From positions 186,001-250,000 of the forward strand of contig JAFDZS010000007.1 of NCBI GenBank assembly GCA_018266775.1: a stretch of DNA of 64,000 bases, in the 5' to 3' direction. The DNA comes from Bacteroidota bacterium. Its GTDB lineage: Bacteria; Bacteroidota; Bacteroidia; Chitinophagales; Chitinophagaceae. Positions 21,202 through 26,828 of this stretch are shown piece after piece. The notes under the pieces are model-generated. The model saw nothing but the letters and a program-made list of their open reading frames with translations, ran no database searches and had not been told where the DNA came from. Position numbers and translations under genes: made by a program. Within the stretch, counting starts at the first letter, position 1. Each line of letters begins with the position of its first letter.

Positions 21202-21229
21202 AAAGGGCTGAATATTCAGCCCTTTTTTT
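21202..21229. terminator. Bidirectional terminator between convergent genes
   Basis: A perfect 24-nt palindrome (arm AAAGGGCTGAAT) is followed by a T-run on the plus strand and an A-run on the other side. It lies between the giant barrel gene and the DUF1361 gene, and serves both. Confidence 0.85.
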
Positions 21230-21866
21230 ATAAATCCACCTTAATCGCTTTAATGGAAACAAACAATAAATAAAACAAAGCGGTAAGCAAAACTGTTATG
21301 CCCCATGTTTGCCAATAAATAACGGGGTTAATGATACGCACTGCAATGGTACCAAACAAATGCAACGGATTTTGCAATACATCCCAACTGTTCCACCGCA
21401 GGAAACGGCCGAGATACACACCAAAAGAGCCAAAGAATAATACCGCGATCATTACTACATGTACAAACTGTGGTTTCATTTTGAAAGAAAGATAAAATTC
21501 CAGCCGCAATAATGAAACAAAGCCCATCAATAACCCTGCAATTGATGCTGTGAACAATAAAATGGCGTCGAACCATTTGGGTACAATCGTGTCCAGGTCA
21601 AGATGAATTAAATCTGTTACAATGTACAGTGCGTTAGGGTAAAAAACGAACCAGCATATTAATGCTGTAAATTGCTGCCACGGCGGCGCAGCAATCAATA
21701 CGCTGAATTTGCTGCTGATCACATAAGGGATCCACGCTAAAAATAAATTCCATACCAGGAATACAAATCCCTGTCCGCCGGTATATATAAACCGTATCGC
21801 CATCATTATTGCAATAAGCGCAAAAAAAGCAAATAACACATTTTGAAACCTGATGTTAGTTTTCAT
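21228..21866 (-). CDS. DUF1361 integral membrane protein
   Basis: 212 residues with six to seven hydrophobic helices. Family signatures are 'WNLFLAWIPY' and 'FYPNALYIVTDLIHL'. Function of DUF1361 is unknown. Last gene of the six-gene operon; its ATG begins 1 nt after the diacylglycerol-kinase-like stop, so translational coupling is likely. Confidence 0.85.
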   Translation of the reverse strand: MKTNIRFQNVLFAFFALIAIMMAIRFIYTGGQGFVFLVWNLFLAWIPYVISSKFSVLIAAPPWQQFTALICWFVFYPNALYIVTDLIHLDLDTIVPKWFDAILLFTASIAGLLMGFVSLLRLEFYLSFKMKPQFVHVVMIAVLFFGSFGVYLGRFLRWNSWDVLQNPLHLFGTIAVRIINPVIYWQTWGITVLLTALFYLLFVSIKAIKVDL

Positions 21867-21867
21867 A

Positions 21868-22431
21868 TTAAAGTGAGTGAATAAAAGAAATAATTTTAGG
21901 AAGAAAAATAAACAGCGCCACCACTACACTACCCGATGCTGCAATCAATACTGCACCTGCGGCCATGTCCTTAATCATTTTTATGATGGGATGTTGTGAG
22001 GGTTCTATCATATTACACAACCGTTCCAGGGCACTGTTCAGCAATTCAGCGGTTAATACGAATGCGATACAAATGATCACTGCCGCCCATTCCAATGGCG
22101 ACAACTTTAAAAAATATCCCATCAAACCAACCAGTAATGCTGCACAACAATGTATCCTGAAATGAATTTCGTTTTTCAGGCAAGTTGTAATACCACGCCA
22201 GGCATACTTAAAAGCAAATAATCGTTTCCTGATTCGTGAACTAACGGCAATAGCTGTTACTATAAGCAATGCAATACTTACCAGCAATAAAATCAACGCG
22301 GCGGTATTCACCATCATCCATGCTGTCTCGTTTAAGTTGTTACGCAGCCGCGATGCACATACATATCCTGTTACTGAAATAAGCATCAGCAAAATGGAAA
22401 CCACTACATACCGGGTTGTTTTTATTTTCAC
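21868..22431 (-). CDS. Diacylglycerol kinase / undecaprenol kinase-like membrane enzyme
   Basis: About 187 residues from a GTG at 22431, which lies 11 nt after the preceding stop; an ATG at 22467 would overlap that gene by 25 nt. Two extra N-terminal helices (not in E. coli DgkA) precede a DgkA domain (about residues 75-187) with 'AWRGITTCLKNEIHFRIH' and the catalytic 'LLNSALERLCNMIEP'; the aspartate of 'IKDMAAGAVL' follows. It phosphorylates a lipid alcohol at the inner membrane, most likely undecaprenol or diacylglycerol. Length exceeds single-domain DgkA because of the N-terminal extension. Confidence 0.85.
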   Translation of the reverse strand: MKIKTTRYVVVSILLMLISVTGYVCASRLRNNLNETAWMMVNTAALILLLVSIALLIVTAIAVSSRIRKRLFAFKYAWRGITTCLKNEIHFRIHCCAALLVGLMGYFLKLSPLEWAAVIICIAFVLTAELLNSALERLCNMIEPSQHPIIKMIKDMAAGAVLIAASGSVVVALFIFLPKIISFIHSL

Positions 22432-22442
22432 AGTATAAATAT

Positions 22443-22658
22443 TCAGGATGTTTTTTCTGCCACCCATTTCCACCAAAAAGCTGTATAGCTGGCATATACA
22501 AATACGCTGTACCATGCATCAGTTACTGAATGTGCATTGCGATTGATGGAAAATAGTACAGGAACCATAAATAAAGCAGCTAACAGCGTAACAATAAAAC
22601 CGGCAGGGTGAATGGGCATATAAACCCATGCTGTTTTACGAAACAAAATCTTTTTCAT
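22443..22658 (-). CDS. Small two-helix membrane protein
   Basis: 71 residues: 'MKKILFRKTAWVYMPIHPAG', helix one at about 19-36 and a second aromatic helix at about 48-65 ('VFVYASYTAFWWKWVAEK'). It overlaps the radical SAM stop by 23 nt and ends 11 nt before the kinase start, which supports it being a real operon member. Function unrecognised. Confidence 0.75.
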   Translation of the reverse strand: MKKILFRKTAWVYMPIHPAGFIVTLLAALFMVPVLFSINRNAHSVTDAWYSVFVYASYTAFWWKWVAEKTS

Positions 22659-24153
22659 ATTTGAGTGGCTTAAGTTGCCATAACGCCGGTTGCTCCTGCG
22701 CCAACCAAAAGTCTTTCAGCAACATTTTCTTTCTACTCAGCCGGGTTACAAAAAAGAACTGGAACAATTCATAAAACCAAACTCTTCTGCCGATGTTGGT
22801 GTACCAGCGCATCGCACTTCTCAACCTTGCTTCTTTATGAAACAATAATCTTTTCACAGCGCTGGGCCTTGTCTGCATAATGATTTCTATCAATTTTACG
22901 TATAAAATCACAACAGCAGGCGACAAATATTTTGTTGCCATCACCTGGTGTTTATAATCCCATCTTCTTTGATCGGTTAAAATAATTTCTTTGTCTTTCA
23001 CTTCGTCAAAATAAGGTGTCCATTGATGGGGTGTTGCATACAGTAATTGCACCTGGTCAGGATCGTAAGACAATAATTGTTTCAGGCTGTTATAAAAATC
23101 CCTCGTGCGTTCTTCTCCAAAACCCACCACATAAGTGGCCATGGAAAGAATACCATGTTTACGCAGCAATTGAATTGCTTCCTTATCTTTTGATACAGCA
23201 CCTGCCTTTTTTATTTTTTCCAATACCACTTCATCATAATTTTCTATGCCCAGTAAAAACCTTTCGAAGCCCGCCTTTTTATAGAGGTGAAGAAAATCGG
23301 CATCTCTCACAATATTATCTGCACGGATAGAGCCCACTAAAATTAACTGCAGGTTTTTATTGGCGAGGCATTGCAAAAATTCCCGCCAGGGTTTGGGATT
23401 AGAAGATGGATTTTCATCAGCGAAATTGATGACTTCAATTCCATATTTGTAGTGCAGCATTTCAATTTCATCGGCCAGCAATTGCGGATCTCGGTGCCGC
23501 CATTTTTTCCAGAATAAACTCTGTCCGCAATAGGTACACGGATATGGACAGCCTCTTGAAAATTGTATCACCACTGCCTTCCGTTTACCCCAGTACGTGT
23601 AACGGTAATTTCCCATCAGCTCCCAACCCACGCGGTATGCATCAAGATTTTTAATTAATTCCGCAGATGCCGTTTTAACCGGCACACCATTCAAACGCAG
23701 GGCAATGCCCCGCACTGTTTCCAATGATGAACCATGTTCAATTGCGGTAATTAAAGCCAATGCGGTAGCTTCACCTTCACCACAAACAACATAATTTATT
23801 TGCGGGTTATGCTGCAATATTTCATTCCAGTGATAAGTGGGAAATACGCCGCCAACAATAATCGTCAATTTTGGTAACTGCCTTTTGATCATGCGTGTAA
23901 TTGCATTGATGATGGGTTGCGCCGAAGTGGAGCCTGAATGCCCCAGTAAAACTGCATCAGGGTTCCTGTTTAATACTTCAATGCAAATTTTTTTGTATGA
24001 CATCGGACCGAATTCTGCATCCAGCAATTCCACTTTATGGCCAGCATCAATCAATGGCCCGCCGATAGACAATAATCCTAACGGAGGAAGATGTTCATGT
24101 GCCAGCCTGCTGCCAATAGATAAATGTGGCGGATTGATAATGAGTATTTTCAT
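22636..24153 (-). CDS. B12-binding radical SAM enzyme, BchE-like
   Basis: 505 residues. N-terminal cobalamin-binding Rossmann domain (1-140: 'MKILIINPPH', 'LPPLGLLSIGGPLIDAGH', 'VVCGEGE'), then a radical SAM barrel with the [4Fe-4S] motif Cys202-x3-Cys206-x2-Cys209 in 'RGCPYPCTYCGQS', and a C-terminal helical domain (about 390-505). Closest named family is anaerobic Mg-protoporphyrin cyclase BchE and related methyl/cyclising enzymes. No chlorophyll genes are nearby, so the substrate is probably different. Its partners suggest a membrane lipid or another hydrophobic molecule (inference). The canonical B12-binding DxHxxG is not obvious, as in several BchE-like proteins. Confidence 0.9.
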   Translation of the reverse strand: MKILIINPPHLSIGSRLAHEHLPPLGLLSIGGPLIDAGHKVELLDAEFGPMSYKKICIEVLNRNPDAVLLGHSGSTSAQPIINAITRMIKRQLPKLTIIVGGVFPTYHWNEILQHNPQINYVVCGEGEATALALITAIEHGSSLETVRGIALRLNGVPVKTASAELIKNLDAYRVGWELMGNYRYTYWGKRKAVVIQFSRGCPYPCTYCGQSLFWKKWRHRDPQLLADEIEMLHYKYGIEVINFADENPSSNPKPWREFLQCLANKNLQLILVGSIRADNIVRDADFLHLYKKAGFERFLLGIENYDEVVLEKIKKAGAVSKDKEAIQLLRKHGILSMATYVVGFGEERTRDFYNSLKQLLSYDPDQVQLLYATPHQWTPYFDEVKDKEIILTDQRRWDYKHQVMATKYLSPAVVILYVKLIEIIMQTRPSAVKRLLFHKEARLRSAMRWYTNIGRRVWFYELFQFFFVTRLSRKKMLLKDFWLAQEQPALWQLKPLKYEKDFVS

Positions 24154-24164
24154 TGTTGTATATT

Positions 24165-24617
24165 TTAGAGCTGATCAATATTATGAAGTAAAGAACCATC
24201 ACTATCATCATAATCTTCAGGCGGGCTTTTCAGTAACGGTTGCCTGAAAATGATTGCAGCTAAAAGGGACGAGATGACGATACTAATACACAATGGAACA
24301 GGATTACGGTCAATTTCAGAAAGAAAATCACGATATAAGAATGCAGCAACTGCTGAACAAATGAAAACAACAATCAATACCTGCAAGAAATCATCATGAA
24401 TTATTTTACATGCACTCAGTATGCTGGAAACTATTATCGCCGCTATTAATACCGGGATGGAAAGAACGACAGAAAAAATAAACGCAAGTATAAAGTCAGC
24501 GGCAATCGCTCCGTTCCAGCCATGTCCGATGAAACATACGCTGAGTAAAGCATTGATGAAAGATGCCACCGGCCAGATCTTAATATAAGTACCAATCAGT
24601 TTTGAAGAGGTGTTCAT
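24165..24617 (-). CDS. Four-helix membrane protein of unknown function
   Basis: 150 residues with four hydrophobic segments (about 14-35, 44-68, 77-95, 108-125) and an acidic tail 'PPEDYDDSDGSL'. It lies 11 nt from each neighbour in the operon, so it is translated with the radical SAM and ferritin-like genes. No family recognised. Confidence 0.78.
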   Translation of the reverse strand: MNTSSKLIGTYIKIWPVASFINALLSVCFIGHGWNGAIAADFILAFIFSVVLSIPVLIAAIIVSSILSACKIIHDDFLQVLIVVFICSAVAAFLYRDFLSEIDRNPVPLCISIVISSLLAAIIFRQPLLKSPPEDYDDSDGSLLHNIDQL

Positions 24618-24628
24618 AAATTTTTTTA

Positions 24629-25384
24629 TTAAATGGTTACCTGAACGGAAAGATTGTTTGTGTCACTATCATTATCAATGTGCAGTCTGCCGATTGTTTT
24701 ATTCATCTTAATGCGCATTTTATGTAAATACCTGCGCAATGAATTACCCCCTGCTTTAAACAATTTCCTGTGCCCCATCCATACCACAAGTGTAGTGGAA
24801 GCAAAAAAGAATTTATAAAAAATCAATGTTAATGATTGGGCTAACGGCTTTTTGCTATTCAGAATTACAGCAAGCCGCTGCTGCTGAAATTGAATGTGCG
24901 GTGCTTCATCAATCAGTATATCGGTACATATTGCTTTAAGCAATGGGCAGCCTGTGGCATCTTTTAATGATTGATAAAAAATCTGTGCGGCACTTTCTAC
25001 TGTGATCACGGCAAGCGTCCACCATTCCATGCTGGTGTTAAGCCCCCTGATGGTGCGGAACATAGTATCTCCCCAATCTTTTTGAATCCTTGGTTTACCG
25101 ATAGCATCGAGGTACCTGCCCAGATTATTGCCGTGTTTCTGTTCTTCTTTAATAAATAATTTTACAGCCTCTTCATAAAGCGGGTCATTTATTTTCAGTG
25201 CATATTTTTTACTGGCTGCAATTAGGTGCAGGCCATCTGAAGTTTCGCCCAATTGCCAGGCCTGTAATGACCGCAATACCGGCCGCAATTCGTTTTCAGT
25301 GATAACGGGTTGCTGCATCCAGTTAATTCTTTGTTGCTGCAGGTTGACGGTGAAATAGTCAATCCATTGTTGAGAAGTTTTCAT
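24629..25384 (-). CDS. Ferritin-like diiron protein
   Basis: 251 residues. Helix-borne metal ligands fit a carboxylate-bridged diiron site: Glu72 region, Glu81-x2-His84 ('KEEQKH'), Glu130 ('VESAAQ') and Glu160-x2-His163 ('DEAPH'). This is the E-ExxH-E-ExxH layout of rubrerythrin, AcsF and AurF-like oxygenases. A hydrophobic helix near 181-200 suggests membrane association. First well-supported gene of the operon that includes the BchE-like enzyme. AcsF and BchE are the oxygen-dependent and oxygen-independent versions of the same cyclase step in phototrophs, which makes the pairing notable. Actual reaction unknown. Confidence 0.8.
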   Translation of the reverse strand: MKTSQQWIDYFTVNLQQQRINWMQQPVITENELRPVLRSLQAWQLGETSDGLHLIAASKKYALKINDPLYEEAVKLFIKEEQKHGNNLGRYLDAIGKPRIQKDWGDTMFRTIRGLNTSMEWWTLAVITVESAAQIFYQSLKDATGCPLLKAICTDILIDEAPHIQFQQQRLAVILNSKKPLAQSLTLIFYKFFFASTTLVVWMGHRKLFKAGGNSLRRYLHKMRIKMNKTIGRLHIDNDSDTNNLSVQVTI

Positions 25385-25711
25385 GTGTAACGGTTAATTG
25401 TTGATGATGATTGGGTACATGCGCATTTTGGAAGAGATAGTACAACAGGTAAACAGCACTGCAGGGTAAAGTATGCTGCAGCGCTGTTACTGTTTGTTGT
25501 GCTTAGTAAGGGTACAATTGAAAACGGGCCATTAAAAGTGTTTGGGGTAAACATTTTAATTTTTTGTTCTGACAAACTATTTTTCATGTAAAGGATAAAT
25601 GAACAGGTTGTGGTGGAAGCAGAGACAGGCATACAAACTCCCAGTTGCTGTTTGCTTAAACTGGCCAGGTTGATATCGTATATCCGTTTATTCACTTCTA
25701 TTTTAAAAAGC
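25385..25711 (-). other. Long leader between the operator and the ferritin-like gene
   Basis: About 330 nt with no convincing gene. One frame stays open on the minus strand from a TTG at 25725 to a TGA at 25381 that overlaps the ferritin-like ATG by 4 nt (ATGA). Its product (114 residues) is Ser/Thr/Cys-rich, has no recognisable domain, and its start lies inside the palindrome. It could be a real coupled leader peptide, a decayed gene, or chance. I favour a long untranslated leader or gene remnant. Confidence 0.4.
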
Positions 25712-25728
25712 ACTTTGAATTTCAAAGT
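25712..25728. promoter_or_regulatory. Palindromic operator 1 (radical SAM/ferritin operon)
   Basis: ACTTTGAATTTCAAAGT is a perfect palindrome around a central T. It is preceded by AAAAAGC and followed by AAA, the same context as the second copy at 26812-26828. It is placed to control the minus-strand operon starting at 25384. The adjacent winged-helix gene is the obvious candidate binder. Confidence 0.65.
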
Positions 25729-25744
25729 AAAAATATAAAAAAAT

Positions 25745-26041
25745 TTATTTTACACTGCCGATCATTTTTTCCAAAGCTGTTAAATGTGCCTTAAAAGCTT
25801 TTTCTCCCGCTTTGGTTATGGAATAGGTTGTGTTGGTCTTTCGCCCAATGAAACCTTTCTGCACTTTTACATACGTACTTTCTTCCAGTGTTTTTAAATG
25901 ACTGGCCAGGTTCCCATCGGTAATATTGAGGAGTTCTTTCAATTCATTAAAATTCATTTCCGCATTCACCATCAGGGCACTCATGATGCCCAGGCGTATG
26001 CGGCTGTCGAAAATTTTATTTAAGTTTTCAATAAAGTTCAT
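25745..26041 (-). CDS. Winged-helix transcriptional regulator (HTH_34 type)
   Basis: 98 residues: an all-winged-helix protein starting 'MNFIENLNKIFDSRIRLGIM', recognition region 'ITDGNLASHLKTLEES' and wing 'GFIGRKTNTTYSITKAG'. The family resembles small MarR/ArsR-like regulators without a sensing domain. It follows the membrane-protein gene (81-nt gap) and lies 16 nt upstream of operator 1. Both palindromes flank this two-gene unit, so autoregulation plus control of the downstream operon is likely (inference). Confidence 0.88.
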   Translation of the reverse strand: MNFIENLNKIFDSRIRLGIMSALMVNAEMNFNELKELLNITDGNLASHLKTLEESTYVKVQKGFIGRKTNTTYSITKAGEKAFKAHLTALEKMIGSVK

Positions 26042-26122: not shown

Positions 26123-26803
26123 TCAATGTTCAGCGGTCATATTGTTATACTCACCAGTTTCTTTTTCATAACGGTACCACATCACAATTCCGTATATAAT
26201 ATGCAAAATACCAAAACCCGTTGCCCAAAAATAAATACCATACCCCACAAACCAGCAGTTAATGATACCCAGCAATAATTGGCTGTATCCCAAATAACGT
26301 ATTTCCCCTAAAGTGTATTTACCGGCATTTACCAAAGCCAAACCATAAAATATCAGGCATCCCGGTGCTATCAACCCAATATTTCCAAACTGGATTTGGC
26401 GGAACAGGTAAATACCGCCGGCAACCATAGGCACGGCCACATTAACCATTAAACGTTTGGAGGTATATCCCCACATGGGAATATTATTTTTTTTGCTGCG
26501 CAAATATGTAAACAGGAAGGAAGAAAGAAAAGCAGCAATAAATGTAAGCAATGCAATATGAAACAATTTATGACCCATTAATTCGGCCAGCGATTCTGTA
26601 GGCAGGCTTTTGCTTGCTGCATCACGAAATGCTGCGGGACCTCCACTATCCCATACCACTTTGCCACCAAACCATGCCCCCACCAATGCGCACACCCCGG
26701 CAGCCACACCACTTAAGCCGCTCAGGCTGATGAAACGGCTGCTGCGCTCCATCATTTGTTTGATCTGCTGAATATCCTGTAATGATTGCTGTTGCTCATT
26801 CAT
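26123..26803 (-). CDS. Multi-helix membrane protein paired with the regulator
   Basis: 226 residues from the ATG at 26803 (MNEQQQSLQDIQQIKQMMER). A start at 26845 would place the leader through operator 2 and is rejected. About five helices follow an amphipathic N-terminus ('SRFISLSGLSGVAAGVCALVG'). Regulator/membrane-protein pairs of this kind are common in Bacteroidota, with the membrane partner perhaps sensing the signal; the function is unproven. Confidence 0.8.
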   Translation of the reverse strand: MNEQQQSLQDIQQIKQMMERSSRFISLSGLSGVAAGVCALVGAWFGGKVVWDSGGPAAFRDAASKSLPTESLAELMGHKLFHIALLTFIAAFLSSFLFTYLRSKKNNIPMWGYTSKRLMVNVAVPMVAGGIYLFRQIQFGNIGLIAPGCLIFYGLALVNAGKYTLGEIRYLGYSQLLLGIINCWFVGYGIYFWATGFGILHIIYGIVMWYRYEKETGEYNNMTAEH

Positions 26804-26811
26804 AAAAAAGC

Positions 26812-26828
26812 ACTTTGTAATACAAAGT
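26812..26828. promoter_or_regulatory. Palindromic operator 2 (regulator/membrane-protein unit)
   Basis: ACTTTGTAATACAAAGT is a perfect palindrome around a central A, beginning 9 nt upstream of the ATG at 26803. It shares both half-sites (ACTTTG/CAAAGT), spacing and the AAAAAGC flank with operator 1. Its position across the 5' leader suits repression. Confidence 0.7.

Follow-up and report, generated by a model that had tools for sequence, protein, structure and literature searches.

The window analysed here, a stretch of 64,000 nucleotides (nt) on contig 22 of a 5.08-Mb Bacteroidota genome (the host genome, G000), lists six open reading frames (ORFs) on the minus strand between positions 21228 and 25384, which in 5' to 3' order are called FER, M150, RSAM, S71, DGK and DUF1361 (Table 1). 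They are separated by 11, 11, -23, 11 and 1 nt, as the initial annotation of this DNA had described, with DGK starting at a GTG codon at 22431. In a Pfam scan of the window proteins, the products of RSAM, DGK and DUF1361 score above the family cut-offs, in agreement with their first assignment as a B12-radical SAM enzyme, a DgkA-like kinase and a DUF1361 protein, and no family reaches its cut-off for FER, M150 or S71. Immediately upstream of FER and on the same strand lie HTH_34, whose winged-helix product also passes its Pfam cut-off, and M240. The initial placement of the operon start at the ferritin-like FER gene is to be revised, because HTH_34, M240 and a palindrome accompany FER in relatives; the six genes belong to a larger unit. 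Here we argue that the regulator, the R2-type protein, the lipid kinase and the membrane proteins are the longer-standing parts of this cassette, and that RSAM does not belong to its core but was acquired rarely, as an optional addition.

This distinction emerges from the neighbours of FER in other genomes, counted where they share its strand and lie no more than 4 kb away. The count covers 80 genome loci, the best of 214, which are not independent (L025 and L026 come from one strain, and Mucilaginibacter is over-represented). HTH_34 and M240 each occur at 53 of the 80 loci, followed by CreD (30), DUF1361 (19) and DUF4153 (15), with DGK (7), Coq4-like proteins (5) and S71 (1) as rarer neighbours; RSAM and M150 occur at none. 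Conservation of the six genes as one system, which the initial annotation had envisaged, is rejected on these counts. Among these loci, L046 belongs to Ferruginibacter sp. RYN_298, and within the genus of the host, FER is also found in G016 on a contig of 12,526 bases. In G040, whose FER is 28-32% identical to that of the window depending on the alignment, the order is M240, HTH_34, DUF4153, a protein of the exo/endonuclease-phosphatase type, a membrane protein, FER and DGK.

The regulator is accompanied by a conserved DNA motif. Sites resembling the palindrome CTTTG-N5-CAAAG lie on both sides of the HTH_34 gene in the window, and with up to two mismatches the palindrome follows HTH_34 in 41/49 related loci (0.0 in shuffled sequences) and precedes M240 in 43/52 relatives (0.14 in shuffles), the shuffles preserving mononucleotide but not dinucleotide composition. 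Exact palindrome cores number 14 across 87 loci against 0.34 expected from base composition, and the motif is also present in Chitinophagaceae, Mucilaginibacter and Pedobacter loci. Its weight comes from position and conservation, since its counts in the window and the genome are unremarkable: the whole genome holds three places against one for a reversed control, the two besides the window site lying inside ORFs. At up to three mismatches the window itself contains 3 sites against 7.5 by chance, so that the motif is not commoner there than expected. By its position and conservation, the palindrome is likely the operator of HTH_34, and the cassette is likely to be under the control of this adjacent regulator.

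Table 1. Features of the cassette and its surroundings (positions within the window)
Feature	Position	Strand	Remarks
M240, conserved membrane protein, first of the regulator pair	26123..26803	-	ATG at 26803; listed ORF from GTG 26845
Palindrome variant CTTTGTAATACAAAG, likely operator	26813..26827		Just upstream of the M240 ATG; 2 mismatches
HTH_34, winged-helix regulator	25745..26041	-	PF13601, 100.1 bits (cut-off 27)
Palindrome CTTTGAATTTCAAAG, likely operator	25713..25727		Exact match; 17 nt past HTH_34, 328 nt ahead of FER
FER, R2-like dimetal (diiron-type) protein, 251 aa	24629..25384	-	Ligands, AlphaFold model, predicted R2/R2lox fold
M150, predicted multi-pass membrane protein, 150 aa	24165..24617	-	Topology by eye
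RSAM, B12-binding radical SAM enzyme, BchE-related clade, 505 aa	22636..24153	-	Pfam B12-binding and Radical_SAM
S71, short membrane protein, 71 aa	22443..22658	-	Topology by eye; 23-nt overlap with RSAM
DGK, membrane extension and DAGK_prokar domain	21868..22431	-	GTG start, ORF listed from 22515; PF01219
DUF1361, membrane protein	21228..21866	-	PF07099, 121.9 bits
10-pair inverted repeat, possible terminator	21202..21225		Between convergent genes; scored on the + strand

Two further features border the genes. Terminator-like sites in the region number 6 against 5.7 in shuffled sequence, which lends the possible terminator downstream of DUF1361 weak support. Between HTH_34 and FER, an open frame (25381-25725) runs from a TTG that overlaps the palindrome and shows no gene-like sign; it may be a remnant, because a CreD or membrane gene starts there in several relatives.

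The FER protein bears a conserved set of six metal ligands. Across 34 sequences, with identities as low as 27%, none of E47, E81, H84, E130, E160 and H163 varies, so that the ligands whose absence would have refuted the diiron protein first proposed are present. The AlphaFold model (predicted local distance difference test score, pLDDT, 89.7) has a predicted R2-type helical fold matching R2 of ribonucleotide reductase and R2lox, and the R2lox ligand pattern E, ExxH, E, ExxH is retained throughout the 34 sequences, whereas at the sequence level the FER profile finds no match among PDB sequences at E<=0.1. R2lox reportedly binds fatty acids and oxidises alkanes. Read solely by offset from the ligands, the positions that would correspond to the R2lox cross-link are occupied in the 34 FER sequences by Asp/Glu and Ala/Thr/Val/Ser, and never by Tyr. 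In R2lox itself, the Val-Tyr ether cross-link joins V72 and Y162 (PMC6399176). No AcsF or rubrerythrin model of the Pfam and NCBIfam collections, which include AcsF, matches FER at E<=0.1, and FER is accordingly not taken as an AcsF relative.

The DGK protein is a full-length match to DAGK_prokar (PF01219; 117.7 bits against a cut-off of 22.3), and it matches solved diacylglycerol kinase chains with E values of 5e-10 to 2e-8. It shares this domain with the DgkA kinases, yet carries an extra N-terminal membrane segment. The cassette kinases are further set apart by natural fusion of FER to DAGK_prokar, which is seen in 10 of the 120 FER homologues listed (five fused sequences were read) and suggests a shared substrate or site. 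A word-based protein search finds only M150 itself, making it an orphan by that search, and a 25% match (E 0.001) connects it to the protein preceding FER in L014; similarity to BacA (E 0.0026 and 0.015) fell below the cut-off and was not used. A relative of S71, 38% identical, lies between HTH_34 and FER in L020.

Coq4-like proteins adjoin FER in five Bacteroidota loci (L019, L020, L047, L050 and L069), which recalls ubiquinone synthesis, where COQ4 acts and where COQ7 is a diiron protein too. All three of these neighbours that were read carry HDxxHx11E, and by Pfam one is above the cut-off, one below it and one without a match; the host genome, in contrast, yields no Coq4 match. In L109 (4764-6924), 79 nt separate a flavin amine oxidase (PF01593), read as protoporphyrinogen-oxidase-like, from the FER relative that follows it.

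The same neighbourhoods could be explained by a membrane-stress unit devoid of small-molecule chemistry, in which FER would store or detoxify iron or peroxide and DGK would recycle diacylglycerol alongside HTH_34, CreD and DUF4153. The frequency of CreD and DUF4153 beside FER agrees with such a unit, as does the helical bundle that FER shares with the ferritin superfamily. Nevertheless, FER has the six ligands and resembles R2-type enzymes in its predicted fold, and the fusion with the kinase points to a common substrate or site, so that we regard this explanation as improbable.

RSAM requires separate consideration, as its automatic name, BchE, is very likely wrong. The protein has the B12-binding and radical SAM layout and the CxxxCxxC motif of BchE, and it passes the BchE equivalog model TIGR02026 by 4 bits (485.6 against a cut-off of 481.35). 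Five relatives of its clade score between 481.3 and 669.3, with the Sphingobium protein (481.3) just below the cut-off, whereas BchE proteins encoded beside bch or puh photosynthesis genes reach 816.2 and 847.0 and that of Pseudanabaena 756.3. Identity of RSAM to the BchE proteins of photosynthesis islands is about 27%, and to plasmid proteins of the cyanobacterium Allocoleopsis and of Sphingobium 51-56%. These two plasmid proteins (L101, 6514-8082, and L100, 9115-10566, respectively), although annotated "bchE", group with the RSAM clade and not with photosynthetic BchE. In a tree of 22 rows, the four BchE-annotated rows fall together (97/95) and the 16 rows of the RSAM clade form a separate group (100/99), with HpnR, G619 and Sphingobium as long branches. 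Additionally, Mg-chelatase H/CobN (PF02514) is absent from five genomes with RSAM (G000, G093, G454, G459 and G465), and it is present in 5/14 control genomes and has three matches in G619. The initial annotation had seen no chlorophyll genes, and for PF02514, the only family tested across the whole genome, this now extends to the entire host. Collectively, the separate clade, the TIGR02026 scores and the missing Mg-chelatase H lead us to reject RSAM as a photosynthetic BchE. The analogy to the BchE/AcsF pair, drawn initially, has little footing, because FER lacks any AcsF match and is predicted to adopt an R2/R2lox fold, and because RSAM falls outside the BchE clade. The protein of G619 was set aside as a Chlorobia BchE reference, as it scores 367.6, below the TIGR02026 cut-off. 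In that genome (L107, 6925-8951), the gene for this RSAM relative, at 36% identity, overlaps another that encodes a membrane protein and whose PAP2 match is weak, falling short of the cut-off (E 0.01).

As for what RSAM is, its cysteine motif C202xxxC206xxC209 is invariant in alignments of 29 and 25 rows, and its model (pLDDT 73.7, with a poorly modelled cysteine loop) matches the cobalamin radical SAM enzymes TsrM, CysS, TokK and OxsB. On the grounds of Pfam family, invariant cysteines and predicted fold, RSAM is a cobalamin radical SAM enzyme of a BchE-related clade. HpnR, HpnJ and other lipid B12-radical SAM enzymes, whose models are named for hopanoid and lipid biosynthesis, belong to the same superfamily, yet RSAM stays far under their cut-offs (TIGR04367, 131.5 of 650; TIGR03471, 77.7 of 577.6; TIGR04072, 80.4 of 360). 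For BchE, an in vitro assay has been described (PMC13142503).

With BchE as its closest named enzyme family, RSAM could instead serve a tetrapyrrole cassette, in which both it and FER would make or break a porphyrin side group, FER with O2 and RSAM without; the oxidase beside FER in L109 would fit such a role. The five RSAM genomes devoid of Mg-chelatase H, the distance of the clade from photosynthetic BchE both in the tree and in score (481-669 against 816-847 bits), and the lipid kinase and membrane proteins as neighbours all speak against it. We therefore consider such a cassette quite improbable, and tetrapyrrole chemistry is less likely than a reaction on a membrane lipid or isoprenoid.

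How closely RSAM belongs to the cassette is a further question. In both Pinibacter genomes, M240, HTH_34, DUF4153, a membrane-type ORF, DGK, DUF1361 and RSAM form one unit with RSAM last, at 120 and 92 nt from DUF1361, and with the palindrome at one and two mismatches; FER lies on another contig. Moreover, for 9 of 65 close RSAM homologues, 8 of them among the 15 best, the longest contig is exactly as long as that of one of 69 FER homologues, some of these contigs being down to 2,956 bases in length, whereas 600 shifted controls averaged 0.17 and never exceeded 2. The equal sizes would indicate linkage of RSAM to FER beyond the host. All four genomes of the family that contain RSAM, recognised as the same genomes by identical match places, also contain FER, a sample that provides no FER baseline. 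The association is thus not confined to the host, as far as the equal-size contigs and the two Pinibacter units indicate.

Several observations weigh against a functional bond of this kind. Besides its absence from the 80 FER loci, RSAM was found in only 3/41 genomes of FER loci, in 4/394 genomes of the family and 2/396 of the order (host included in both), and in 1/93 of the genus, the host itself. In the phylum it was found in 2/395 genomes, namely the host and, at 36% identity, G619, and in the family of G093 in 1/13; weaker relatives may have been missed in the order, phylum and family searches, because at most three candidates were scored per genome. In L096 and L105 the neighbours of RSAM are unrelated to the cassette, and G093 has RSAM but no FER was found there, which counts against a strict FER-RSAM pair. 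These points, together with members of the RSAM clade, 53-55% identical, on cyanobacterial and Sphingobium plasmids, would suit a passenger, that is, an independently spreading B12 enzyme inside a membrane-stress unit, unconnected to the reaction of FER or DGK. Against such a passenger speak the HTH_34 units of one kind that contain RSAM in two genera, each time at another place, the excess of equal-size contigs, the 23-nt overlap with a neighbouring gene and, for all the missing baseline, the co-occurrence with FER in the four family genomes. On balance, we hold the passenger explanation to be somewhat unlikely, while taking it seriously.

The reading that we prefer, tentatively and at a little under even confidence, is that of a regulated membrane-lipid or isoprenoid cassette with FER and DGK as longer-standing partners, to which RSAM was added, likely for one optional step. 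A role on the lipid side, as first suggested, is plausible in view of the kinase fused or adjacent to FER in some relatives, the R2lox-like predicted fold and the occasional Coq4-like neighbours; both the FER-RSAM pairing and a membrane-lipid substrate are things we infer. Judging from their position and conservation, the palindromes would be the sites at which HTH_34 represses the cassette along with its own pair of genes. Upon its release, FER may bind a long-chain lipid within its helical bundle and oxidise it with O2, in a manner similar to R2lox, as its ligands and predicted fold suggest, and DGK, by its family, would transfer a phosphate to a lipid alcohol or to diacylglycerol. RSAM, with cobalamin and S-adenosylmethionine, could act on an unactivated carbon of the same lipid by methylation or oxidation, a chemistry known in its superfamily, and DUF1361 and the small membrane proteins might, at a guess, hold or move the lipid.

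It is possible that FER and RSAM form an O2-dependent and O2-independent pair, the case of G093 speaking against a strict one. We give low credence to the fullest version of this scheme, a new lipid pathway of Bacteroidota unlike described systems. In it, a single regulator would govern an O2-using R2-type oxidase and an O2-independent B12 radical enzyme, both would carry out one modification of the same isoprenoid or diacylglycerol of the membrane, and the lipid kinase would be physically coupled to the oxidase or fused with it.

No description of a regulon comprising HTH_34, the palindrome, FER, DGK and DUF1361 was found in the literature searched. The locus offers a testable regulon of regulator, palindrome, R2-like oxidase, lipid kinase and DUF1361 in several Bacteroidota genera. 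It also brings to light a protein clade of non-phototrophs that is automatically named BchE though five tested hosts lack Mg-chelatase H. Should the lipid interpretation prove right, the cassette would make an as yet unrecognised membrane-lipid modification accessible to direct test.
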